In this document: positions 19,811 to 59,775 of the stretch, one piece after another
How the letters are laid out: every line of letters starts with the position of its first letter
Numbering within the stretch: position 1 is the stretch's first letter
Assembly: GCF_003265705.1 (NCBI RefSeq)
Contig: NW_020312775.1
Span: 9,350,821 to 9,414,820 of the forward strand
From: Callorhinus ursinus
Taxonomy: Eukaryota; Chordata; Mammalia; Carnivora; Otariidae
Length of the DNA: 64,000 bases
Direction: 5' to 3'
Position numbers and translations under genes: made by a program
Notes under the pieces: generated by a model
Databases searched by the model: none
What the model saw: only the letters and a program-made list of their open reading frames with translations
Told to the model about the DNA's origin: nothing

Positions 19811-20015
19811 AGGCAAGACAGAATATTTAATTAAATGTTCTTTTTAGACAAGGATTTTCAATGTAATGAAGGGGAAGTTCCAGCAAAGGACTTTTGTTAC
19901 TGATTACTAGGATGTCCTGGTCATTGAGAATGCTTATTGATTGATGGATCACATCACTGAAGTGTTGTACCACATGACCTGGGAGTAAAGAACATTCATA
20001 TTTGGGTTTACTCAC

Positions 20016-20178
20016 TTATTATTTAATGCAACAACACCAACTGTGCTTCTAGGAGTTGACATACTGGCCACATAATTCCATTGACGTCCTTCAGGGTCCC
20101 ATCTTTCTACGGTATTTAGATAACTCCATCCATCATGACCACCAACAGCATACATTGGTCCTTCAAGTGTTGTTACAC
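20016..20178 (-). CDS. KLHL4: KLHL4 coding exon, Kelch repeat 3
   Basis: The exon has 163 nt, with acceptor TTTTTATCTCCTAG before GTGTAACAAC and donor AATAATAA followed by GTGAGT. The translation [20 protein letters not shown] is followed by [20 protein letters not shown] and then [13 protein letters not shown], one full Kelch blade with GG, RWDP and the W-N-Y core. The last two bases (AA) join the first base of the next exon to encode lysine, giving ...NNK-LYAIGG. The reading frame is open into the upstream intron sequence, but the pyrimidine tract and the family alignment fix the start at 20178. Confidence 0.96.
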
Positions 20179-21609
20179 CTAGGAGATAAAAATAAGATGA
20201 GGTCTCACCTAGGTATACTGCACATAATGGATTTTTTTTCATTTTGCAAACAACTGGCTGTTTAAAAAATTGTTTTTGTTTATTAAATGGTTTTGTGTAT
20301 ACATTATAATTTCCTAATCTTGATATGAAATTAAAATGGTCTCTCAACCCTAGGAAATTTTCAGGCATAGTTACTGTATAATGGCAGGGTGTCATTGTTG
20401 TAATACTGAAGTTAATGGAAGTAGTGGAATACACCATTTCTAAGGATATAATAAAAAATGCAAACTATTTTTTCTGGCATAATTTCAACATCATTTTTTT
20501 AAATATAAGGGATAGATTAGACATCTATACTGAATCTTAGATAATGCTTAGGTTATTCATAGATTTGATTATTCATAGGTTAACTGTAGTAGGTCTTTTT
20601 AACCCCTGCTTTTTATTATAGTGATAAAAAATATTCACATGAGATAACCAAATAAACAGGAATTTTTGAGGTTTAGTTAGAAATTTGTTCCATTACATAC
20701 TGTGAATTGCCCCTATCTAACTGCTTCTCTGGGAATTCACATAATTAGCCTTTTCCCCCCACCTTCTTCACCATCTCAATTAGCATCTCAGTGGTATAAC
20801 TTCATCACTTCTACCTTCTTAGTAATATCAATAAGATTTTAAAAACTTGCTATGATTTCTCTGTAAGATATGTTTTCTAAGTAATGTCTAGGAATCACAC
20901 TGACACAACTGAGCTGAATAAATATATAGTTTATCATTTGACATGGACACTTTTTTAGATAATGTGGGAAAAAAGACAATACCAGTCCTGAATCTGCCAC
21001 TTTTTAGATGTGTAAGTCAGTTCTTAAAAAAAATAAGGCATTTATTATGCTTTTTAAACAAACTCTATGATATTGAAAATTTATGGAGTCTAGCATGAAG
21101 AAAGATGTACCCTGACAAATATTCAGAAGAATCAAAGTTCCCAACTGTTTCAGAAGTGTCCCCTTCACCTTAAACTTCTTGGGAGTCTCTAGCTTAAGTA
21201 TAACTTAGAGTTGCTCTCAATCAAAACAGTTTTTTCTAAATACCCTTGCTTTGGACCTGCATCCCAAGCCTTTGCTGAAATACAGATTTGCCCCTTATAG
21301 GAAGGGACAAAGTTCATCAAATTAGAAACACAATGTCTTTCCATCATCAAGTACTTTTTGTTTCTTCTAAATTTAGTTTAGAAGAAAACTCCCTATTGTA
21401 GTTTTATGTTCCTCAATGATGTATTCCTTCCAAACTTTTTATTCTTCCTAAAGTGGTACCCTTTTAAAATACATTTAAAGGGAGGCAGGATTAACAAGTA
21501 TGACATCTGAAACAAGAAAAAAATGTTTCACAAATTTTACCATTTGATTCAGCTTTTCAGCATTTTGGAGACATTTTGACTAAGGGTTTGGCTAAATCCC
21601 AGTAATGTA
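20179..21609. other. Intronic DNA, nothing recognised
   Basis: Intron between the repeat-2 and repeat-3 exons. No repeat or RNA gene was identified apart from the L1 tail at its far end. Confidence 0.6.
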
Positions 21610-45859: not shown

Positions 45860-46179
45860 TAAAAATAAAAATAAAAAAGAGCAAGTAAACTGGATCTTTT
45901 TTTTTCCCCAGAAATGACATACAAATGACAAATAGGGATATGAAAATGTGCTTAAAATTACTAAATACCAGGGAAATGTGAATCAAAATCAGAAGAAGGG
46001 ATAGCCAATGTTGGTGAGGTTTTGGAGAAAAGAGAAACTTTATGCACTGTTTGTAGGAATGTAAATTAATACAGCATTATGGAAAACAGTATAGTGGTTC
46101 ATAAAAAAATTAAAAAATAAAACTACCATATGATCCAAAAATCCTACTCATGATTATATGTACAAAGAAATGAAATCAG

Positions 46180-46185
46180 GTGCTC

Positions 46186-46236
<51 letters not shown>

Positions 46237-46286
46237 GGCCCCTGCGCAAGGATGACACGCAAATTCGTGAAGCGTTCCATATTTTT
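46180..46286 (+). ncRNA. U6 snRNA retrocopy, full length
   Basis: All 107 bases, from GTGCTCGCTTCGGCAG through the ACAGAGA box and AGC triad region to the terminal ATATTTTT, match the mammalian U6 spliceosomal RNA as I know it. It is the 5' portion of a composite retro-insertion and sits inside an old L1. It therefore lacks the upstream TATA and proximal and distal sequence elements that drive real U6 genes, and is best called a processed U6 pseudogene. The absence of visible mutations suggests recent insertion. It is antisense to KLHL4, in the intron between 47743 and 44040. Confidence 0.93.
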
Positions 46287-46593
46287 TATTGAGGAGGGCA
46301 CGTTCTGCATGGAGCACTGGGTGTTATGAACAAACAATGAATCATGGAACACTGCACCAAAAACTAATGATGTAATATATGGTGATTAACATAACAATAA
46401 AAAATAAAAAAATAATAACTTATATGGGCCAATATCTTAATGCATACTGTAATATTTCTAACAGCAAAAACCTAAGAGCAATTTAAGTGAACATAAAAGG
46501 GAAACCGTTAAGCAAATTATATTTTATAATGAAATGGGCTGTTTAATCACCACTGAATTTACGATCAAATAAAAAATATAACTGTGAAAAAAA
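46287..46593 (+). mobile_element. Truncated L1 3' end plus transduced flank, joined to U6
   Basis: Immediately after the U6 T-run comes TATTGAGGAGGGCACGTTC, the last 120 bp or so of a young carnivore L1 3' UTR. It ends AACATAACAATAAAAAATAA near 46412. About 170 bp of different sequence follow (46420-46586), with AATAAA at 46569 and a poly(A) run at 46587-46596. The sequence AAAGAAATGAAATCAG occurs at 46164-46179 and again at 46594-46609, forming a 16-bp target-site duplication that encloses U6, L1 and the extra segment as one insertion. The extra segment is best read as a 3' transduction from the source L1's flank, itself looking like an older L1-derived sequence. Confidence 0.85.
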
Positions 46594-47245
46594 AAAGAAA
46601 TGAAATCAGGATCTTAAGAGATATCTGCACTCCCATGTTTGTTGCACTATTATTTATAATAGCTAAATGGAAACAACGAACCTAAATGTCCTTCAACAGT
46701 TGAATGGATAAGGAAATATATCTATTTTTTTTCTGATTTCTTAGAAATGGCAAGTAGATTGGTGGTTGCTAGGGACTGGGAGGGGGAACTGGGGAGGTGT
46801 AGGTCAAAGGGTGTAAACTTTCAGTTATAAGATTAAATAGTTGTGAGGATCTAATGTACAGCATGGTGTCTATAGTTAATAATATGGTATTCAGTAATGT
46901 ATACTTGAAAACTGTTGAGAGTATATCTTAAGGATTCTCGCCACAAAAAAAGGAATTAACTATTTGAGATAATGTGTGCATTAATTACCTTCATCTATGT
47001 AATCATTCCACTTGTGTATGTATAGCAAATCATCACATAGTATAATCTAAATATATAAAATTATATTTGCCAATTATTGCTCAATAAAGTTGGAATATAT
47101 AAATAAATACTTATTGGCCTCCAAACTCATCTTGTTACCTTTGTCTTATAGTTTGAGTAAATATGACTTTATTATTTCAAAGGAAGAGACTATGTCTCTA
47201 ATATAGAGTTGGAATACTACAATTCTAGTTTTTACAAATGAGAAT

Positions 47246-57172: not shown

Positions 57173-59574
57173 AAAACAGTGAATAGAACCTTAGAACTTA
57201 GAACTTTATGGAACGTCATAAAAATACCAATATTTGCATAACTGAAATCCCAACAGAAGAGAGAAAATAACAGTCAGAGAGCTTGTATGAAGATATAATG
57301 GTAAAGAATTCCCCAAATTTCAGGTAAGATATAGATTTAAAATACAAGTAACTTTACAACAATAAAAACACTCAACAAAGTAGGTTTTGAGGGAGTATAC
57401 CTCAAAATAAATAATAAAGGCCATTTATGAAAAACCCAAAGTTAGCATCATATTCAATGGTGAGAAACTGGCAGCTTTTACTCTGAGATCTGGAATAAGA
57501 AAGAATGTACACTCTCACCACTTTTATTTAACATAGTACTGGAAGTCGTAGCCACAACAAGAAAAAGCAATAAAAAGTATCCAAATTGGAAAGGAAAAAG
57601 TAAAACTCAGACTTTGCAGATGACATGATATTATATATGGAACACCTTAAAGACCCTGCCAAAAAACTACTGGAACAAGTACATGCATTCAAGTAAAATA
57701 ATAAGATATGAAATCAATGTACAGAAATCCACTGCATTTCTATACATAATGAAGTAGCAGAACAAGAAATTAAGGAAACAATCTCCTTCACAAATGCAGT
57801 AAAAAGAATAAAATACCTGAGAGTAAGCTCAACTAAGGAGGTGAAAGACCTGTATTCTGAAAACTATAAAACACTGATGAAAGATACTGAAGATGGACAA
57901 ACAAATGGAAAGATACTCCATGCTCATGGATTGGGAGAATGAATATTATTAAAATGTCCATACTACTCAAAGCAGTCTATGCACTTAATGCAATCTCTAT
58001 CAAAATATCAGCAACTTCTTTTCACAAAACTAGAACAAATAATAGTAAAATTTGTATGGAATCACAAAAAACTCAAATAGCCAAAACAATCTTGGAAAAA
58101 AACAGAACTGGAGGTATCCTAATCCCAAACTTCAAGATATACTACAAAGCTGTAGTAATCAAAATAATATGGAACTGGCACAAAAATAGACACATGGATC
58201 AACAGAACAGAACAGAGAGCCCAGAAATAAAGCCACGATTATATGGTCAATTAATCTACAACAACAAATAAAGGCAAAAACCTGCAATGTGGCATAGTAT
58301 ATTCAAAAAATGGTTTGGGGAAAACTGGAAAGCTACATGCAAAGGAATGAAAGTGGGTCACTTTATACAGCATACACAAAAAACATTCAAAATGGATTAA
58401 AGACCTATATGTGAGAACTGAAACCATAAAACTAGAAGAAAACTTAGGCAGTAATCTCTTTGATATCACTTATAGAAACATTTTTCTAGACAGGTCTCCT
58501 TTGGCAAAGGAAACAAAAGCAAAAATAAACTATTGGGACTACACCAAAATAAAAATTTTGCACACCACAGGAAACCATCAGCAAAACAAAAAAAAGAACC
58601 CAATGAATGGGAGAAGATATTTACAAATGATATATCTAAGAGGCAGTTAATATGCAAAATATATGAAGAACTAATACAATTCATCACGAAAATCAAATAT
58701 TCTTATTAAAAACTGGGCAGAGGACCTGAGTAAACATTTCGCTAAAGAAGACATACAGGTGGCCAACAGACACATGAAAACATGCTCAATTATTGCTAAC
58801 CATCAGGGAAATACAAATCAAAACCACAATGAAATATCACCTTATACTTGTCAGAATGGCTAGAATCAAAAATACAAGAAACATCAGTGCTGGTAAGGAT
58901 CTGGAGAAAAAGAAACTCTTGCTTTGTTGGTGAAAATGTAAATTGGCACAGCCACTATGGGAAACAGTGTGGAGTTTTGTTAAAAAAATTAAAAATAGAA
59001 ATACCATATAACACAATAATTCCACTACTAGGTATTTACTCAAAACAAAAACACTAATTCAAAAAGATATATGCACCTTTATGTTTATTACAGCATTATT
59101 TACAATAGCTAAGATATGGAAGCAACTAAAGTGTCCATTGCTAAAGAAATGGATAAATAAGATTATATATAATATATATAATACAGACTATATATACAAT
59201 TGAATATTAGTCATAGAAAAGAATGAAATTTTGCCATTTGAAGGGACATGAATATAGCTGCAGAGTATTATGCTAAGCAAAATAAGTTAGTCAGAGAAAG
59301 ATCAATACCATATGATTTCACTCATATGTGGAATTTAAGAAACAAAAAAGCAAAGGGAAAAAACAGAATGGAAGGCAAACCACAAAACAGACTCTTAACT
59401 ATAAAGAACAAACTGATAGTTAGCAGAGGGGAGAGGGGTGGGTGTATGGATTAAATAGGTGGTGGGGATGAAGGAGTGCACTTGTGATGAGCACTGGGTA
59501 TTGTACAGAAGAGTTGAATCACTATATTTTACACCTGAAACTAATATTACACTGTCTATTAACTAACTGGAATT

Positions 59575-59775
59575 ATTTATTTATTTATTTATTTATTTTT
59601 AGATTTCATTTCTTCATATGAGAGAGAGAGCACAAGCAGGGGGAGGGGCAGAGGGATAAGGAGATGCTGGCTCCCCGCTGAGCAGGGAGCCAGATTCCTG
59701 GCTTGATCCCAGGACATTGGGATCATGACCTGAGCTGAAAGAAGATGCTTAACCAACTGAGCCACCCAGGAGCCC
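59575..59775 (-). mobile_element. CAN SINE, minus member of a head-to-head pair
   Basis: CTAACTGGAATT at 59563-59574 recurs at 59776-59787, bracketing an antisense SINE with a (TTTA)n-type tail. It sits in the terminus of an L1. Confidence 0.9.

Follow-up and report, generated by a model that had tools for sequence, protein, structure and literature searches.

How did a U6 snRNA copy, the end of a young L1 and a third segment come to lie in one retro-insertion, and does the third segment lead back to the L1 that moved? The case is found in a stretch of 64,000 nucleotides of Callorhinus ursinus DNA on contig C1, which was analyzed as a whole and is called the window. A first-pass annotation had described U6, a young L1 end and a segment with its own AATAAA and poly(A) (here, the tag) within one 16-bp duplication. 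This anatomy was confirmed by reading of the sequence, a repeat scan and Rfam. The features are as follows.

45980..46163, + strand: host sequence 5' of the insertion, the ORF2 3' region of an older L1.
46164..46179, no strand: 5' target-site duplication AAAGAAATGAAATCAG, 16 bp, or 17 bp counting G 46180, which is common to U6.
46180..46286, + strand: full-length U6 snRNA copy with T5 at its end; a sixth T (46287) belongs to U6 or L1.
46287..46401, + strand: young L1 3' end, 5'-truncated, up to its own AATAAA; of 30 genomic copies, 15 agree with it at every base.
46402..46413, + strand: A/T-rich L1 tail; its A7 may be L1 tail or the A7 of the parent locus, and the border to the tag is ambiguous.
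46414..46586, + strand: 173-nt tag, copied from C90:7745288-7745460 (L005 from 1514), with 3 substitutions.
46568..46573, + strand: polyadenylation signal AATAAA of the tag.
46587..46593, + strand: poly(A), absent from the parent locus sequence, which has CAGAAAATG.
46594..46609, no strand: 3' target-site duplication AAAGAAATGAAATCAG, from the repeat scan.
46610..46740, + strand: host L1 continuing 3' of the insertion, from the joined-flank alignment.

Within an old L1 relic, the perfect 16-bp duplication encloses U6, ~120 nt from the very 3' end of a young L1, and the 173-nt tag. U6 (46180-46286) corresponds to Rfam RF00026 with 118.8 bits and a complete model (1-105); it is in sense with the L1 and complete at both ends. 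With other L1 3' ends inside the window, the L1 part shares up to 93% identity, and its first 115 nt, counted from 46287, are identical to 15 of the 30 young genomic copies compared. Between the L1 A-tail and the tag, A/T-rich sequence blurs the border (about 46396-46416). The older host L1 had been said to resume right after the insertion, and it does so from 46610 onward. Once the host flanks are joined, they can be aligned through the junction with five other L1 copies of the window (68-71%), which supports one insertion into an old L1 by a single target-primed event. The target, GTAC|AAAGAA, agrees only in part with the L1 endonuclease type TT|AAAA. We read the composite as a single retro-insertion because of the one duplication, the fit of the empty site, a poly(A) that is not encoded at the parent locus and the finding of only one other tag copy. 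That U6, the L1 end and the tag were inserted separately at the same site is highly improbable. No point in favor of this was found, the single 16-bp duplication surrounds all parts, the host sequence fits across the junction, and the repeat scan of 45900-46800 shows no second duplication flanking a single part. In the old L1, a chance TATA-like TTATAT is located at 46154-46159, 21-26 bases upstream of the inserted U6.

A 160-nt query from the tag, used in a genome search that passes over common words, finds exactly two places in the 2.67-Gb assembly: the window and C90 (98%, 3 substitutions). The same search gave no sibling insertion with this tag, and a BLAST comparison at E 0.01 gave no further match to positions 46414-46586 within the 64-kb window. 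After GTG, the window turns to A's from 46587, and C90 continues with CAGAAAATG. As C90 holds the sole other tag copy found and diverges where the poly(A) starts, it was taken as the parent locus. Its breakpoint reads AATTATT|AAAAAAATAACTT; the site is uninterrupted at TATT|AAAAAAA, with a SINE and other sequence upstream. Within C90:7737300-7747000, the L1 end of the window, a 1.6-kb L1 3' reference and U6 gave only short matches (E 0.2 or worse), and for U6 there was nothing but a 14-nt match at chance level. Since no L1 stands beside the tag at C90, the tag, judged from the assembly, names a place and not a surviving source L1. The expectation that it could identify the active source L1 was thus disappointed, as the genome search led only to C90, without an adjoining L1 in the assembly. 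The proposal of a 3' transduction is plausible: the tag has its own AATAAA and poly(A), and the parent copy is without poly(A), but an L1 directly upstream at the parent is absent in the assembly.

In one of 16 segment-strand comparisons, the tag aligns to an L1 ORF2 segment at 59000-59600 with a score above all 300 shuffles. For the host segment, 6 of 300 shuffles scored at least as high, and the remaining comparisons were within chance. Hence, the tag is probably ancient L1 relic sequence. Two other assignments were rejected. The tag as part of the host L1 is ruled out by the second copy on C90 and by the fit of the host without the tag. It is also probably not ordinary unique flank but an ancient L1 relic, though only one other place matches.

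The first-pass annotation expected a U6-L1 chimera with a 3' transduction to be unusual in a carnivoran. However, the same genome contains at least two further U6-L1 composites with 3' additions, L002 and L025. L002 (C29:10868240-10868724) has a 16-bp duplication, and its U6-L1 junction base is identical to that of the window. The parent of its tag is C52:6768595-6768839 (98%), with the breakpoint GGTCTT|AATAGTTGG. An L1 directly upstream of the C52 tag is absent; in the 3.2 kb compared, the only L1 match is an old 54-nt piece on the opposite strand, located downstream of the tag. L025 (C92:30813828-30814636) has a 17-bp duplication, and its tag parent is C7:120230856-120231176 (97%), with the breakpoint GAGAC|AAAAACTG. 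Here, the L1 part of L025 found only short chance-level matches. In the assembly examined, none of the three parent loci (C90, C52, and C7) has an L1 directly upstream, where about 8 kb of flank was checked at C90 and about 1.5 kb at C52 and C7. Two of the three parental breakpoints are L1-endonuclease-like, namely TATT|AAAA at C90 and TCTT|AATA at the L002 parent; the third, GAC|AAAAAC, is not TT|AA. In the two parent regions with TT breakpoints, 94 of 629 and 26 of 193 local A-runs follow TT.

We consider it probable that the assembly lacks the source L1 and that a read-through transcript from it was joined to U6 during reverse transcription. The source L1 would formerly have stood at C90, at TATT|AAAAAAA. 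Its transcript would have passed its own weak signal and ended at the AATAAA in the C90 flank. The L1 endonuclease would have nicked the old L1 in the window, and the read-through RNA would have served as template from its poly(A) onward, first over the tag and next over ~120 nt of L1. Copying would then have moved to U6 RNA and proceeded up to its 5' end, either by a template jump or along an RNA to which U6 had been ligated beforehand. Later, the source L1 would have been lost, or it would lie on a haplotype outside the assembly. This origin is supported by the fit of target-site duplication and empty site, the complete sense U6, the tag at two places only and the TT breakpoints in two of the three parents. 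Against it stand the absence of an upstream L1 in all three parents, the lack of a sibling of the window's tag and the third breakpoint, which is not TT|AA. Finding no L1 at any of three parents is not improbable, about 1 in 8 on our own neutral estimate, because about half of the source insertions are expected to be lost.

The L025 tag was found at a third place, which bears on the C7 parent. L114 (1427-1626, C91) is an insertion with an 18-bp duplication that combines an inverted L1 piece with the final ~100 nt of the C7 tag and A's. Its L1 piece matches an older subfamily copy at 48/52 versus 45/52 for the L1 of L025, and its tag is more diverged. By its layout, L114 looks like a twin-primed relative. 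One source L1 at C7 would not easily explain both because the L1 piece of L114 is nearer to the older subfamily (48/52) than to that of L025 (45/52). Two different L1s, now absent from C7, would explain the pair, as would RNA recombination.

The latter leads to a second explanation, which we regard as unlikely, for the window as well. Here, reverse transcription would start on a polyadenylated C90 transcript, jump at the A-run to the poly(A) of an L1 and then to U6. No L1 would ever have been at C90, and the product would look exactly like a 3' transduction. The absence of an L1 directly upstream in all three parent loci agrees with this, as does the common RNA end of L114 and L025, whose L1 pieces are of different type. 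Tripartite chimeras by double jumps have been published, as far as the consulted part of PMC2104539 goes. Fusions of U6 to other RNAs indicate that non-L1 RNAs enter the pathway (L056, L069, L031 with a SINE between, and L106 with SINE sequence), although these U6/non-L1 fusions could also have arisen as transductions that lost their entire L1 part to truncation. Three of the non-L1 fusions have a flanking duplication: L056, L069 (one mismatch) and L031 (SINE between). Such recombination, however, requires two jumps and a hypothetical C90 transcript. Moreover, TT just outside the breakpoint in two of the three parents is predicted by an endonuclease site and not by a jump. The composite has three origins, U6, L1 and tag; the L1 and the tag may have been one RNA or two.

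A third explanation is that a U6/L1 chimera came first. In its favor, the window and L002 share the base at which U6 meets L1, and this base directly follows a G-rich tract on its 3' side. In that case, a U6/L1 composite would have inserted at C90 and been transcribed from a neighboring promoter, and the window would be its read-through daughter. We hold this to be quite improbable, even with the identical junction base of L002 next to a different tag. The exact U6 5' end in the window and L002 is expected of U6 RNA, not of a start by read-through. The L1 parts of the two copies differ at sites, for example CACC/CATC, which are also variable among ordinary young L1s, and C90 has no U6 beyond the chance-level match. 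Not only in these two but also in L008, the L1 part begins directly 3' of the G-rich tract of the L1 3' UTR (e.g., L075 upstream of TATTGAGG). A quadruplex prediction gave three layers for the L075-type sequence and two layers only for L076. Among the junctions of 20 strict U6/L1 loci, three pairs coincide (0,0; 12,12; 58,58). None of 30 genomic L1 copies fetched by a pattern starting at the junction base is truncated there; L008 is. A junction hotspot just 3' of the G-rich tract is unproven because the T-tail of U6 favors sites after T.

The frequency of such composites was assessed on the best-scored genome hits, with 40 of 1489 candidates scored, and on 36 exact matches to the U6 3' end. 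Counts are lower bounds; masked copies were missed, and L049 was left out of the classification. The classification covered 49 distinct U6 sequences that have a 3' end, the window's among them. By a strict rule, 20 count as joined to the L1 reference, and 4 have a SINE nearby, including L031, whose copy is interrupted by the SINE. The other 25 include plain poly(A) copies, a pair of U6 copies at L023 that lack L1 and are likely genes, and several U6 joined to longer or older L1 parts, which the strict rule left out (e.g., L027 and L028). A duplication was recognized in 16 of the 20 U6/L1 loci by a scan that missed the 11-bp duplication of L006, located directly after its L1 tail. Three of the 16 have a long 3' addition; with the window set aside, as its addition was the reason for choosing it, the count is 2 of 15. 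The distance from the L1 AATAAA to the duplication is 192 bases in the window, 300 in L002 and 396 in L025. In L012, the addition is shorter, at about 41 nt, and the duplication is imperfect. For plain young L1s, a duplication was found in 8 of 30 (six by script, L092 by eye, and L082), with a 3' addition in one of the eight. L082 (C1:3979342-3982376) is a plain young L1 without U6 that has a ~150-nt 3' addition, AATAAA, poly(A) and a 17-bp duplication. With 3/16 chimeras (2/15 without the window) versus 1/8 plain young L1s, in sets that differ in ascertainment, the rate of 3' additions to U6/L1 chimeras is not extraordinary. The same survey gave direct fusions of U6 to short, poly(A)-terminated non-L1 sequences at L056, L069, L066, L108 and L031, and fusions to SINE sequence at L106 and L061/L062.

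That the fusion of U6 to L1 is in itself unusual in a carnivoran is likewise not supported, as table 2 of PMC4476161, in the portion consulted, lists retrotransposon-associated U6 copies in cat (17), dog (26), panda (5) and ferret (11). Carnivoran U6/retrotransposon copies are thus already published, and the structure is not unique in the genome. We filed the feature as a U6/L1 chimeric retrogene; it looks like a 3' transduction and may work like one but is unproven as such. PMC13174262 describes human U6/L1 chimeras with full-length sense U6, formed via ligation or template switching, and its consulted sections discuss transduction as 5' additions only. As in the chimeric retrogenes of these two papers, a full-length sense U6 and a 5'-truncated L1 3' end lie within a target duplication. 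In the sections consulted, however, additions are 5' of the L1, whereas the third segment here is 3' of it. As in L1 3' transductions (PMC9311842 and PMC13009371, consulted in part), the L1 end is followed by sequence with its own signal and poly(A) that is traceable to one locus. In contrast to those, the parent locus is without L1 in the assembly, and the 5' end is U6. The consulted part of PMC2104539 reports tripartite chimeric retrogenes, among them mouse B2-U6-L1 with 15- and 16-bp repeats and fungal WEIRD-SINE-LINE, and reads them as double template jumps. These also have three sequences in one duplication, but their 3'-terminal part is the LINE, whereas the composite in the window has in this position a segment that came from another locus and is probably an ancient L1 relic. 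A literature search by title and abstract opening, with key older papers outside its reach, gave none on U6/L1 chimeras with 3' additions.

3' tags serve to trace active L1 sources, and tracing of this kind may not in every case reach the mobilized L1. If tags of U6/L1 chimeras repeatedly point to loci without L1, as did all three here, either short-lived source L1s are common in the lineage or some apparent transductions are RNA recombination.

Two minor observations were made. U6 copies lie at near-equal coordinates on the similar-sized contigs C142/C143, C62/C63, C86/C89 and C127/C128, as if both haplotypes were partly present. In the window, 20012-20437 on the − strand is a probable exon with a Kelch motif.
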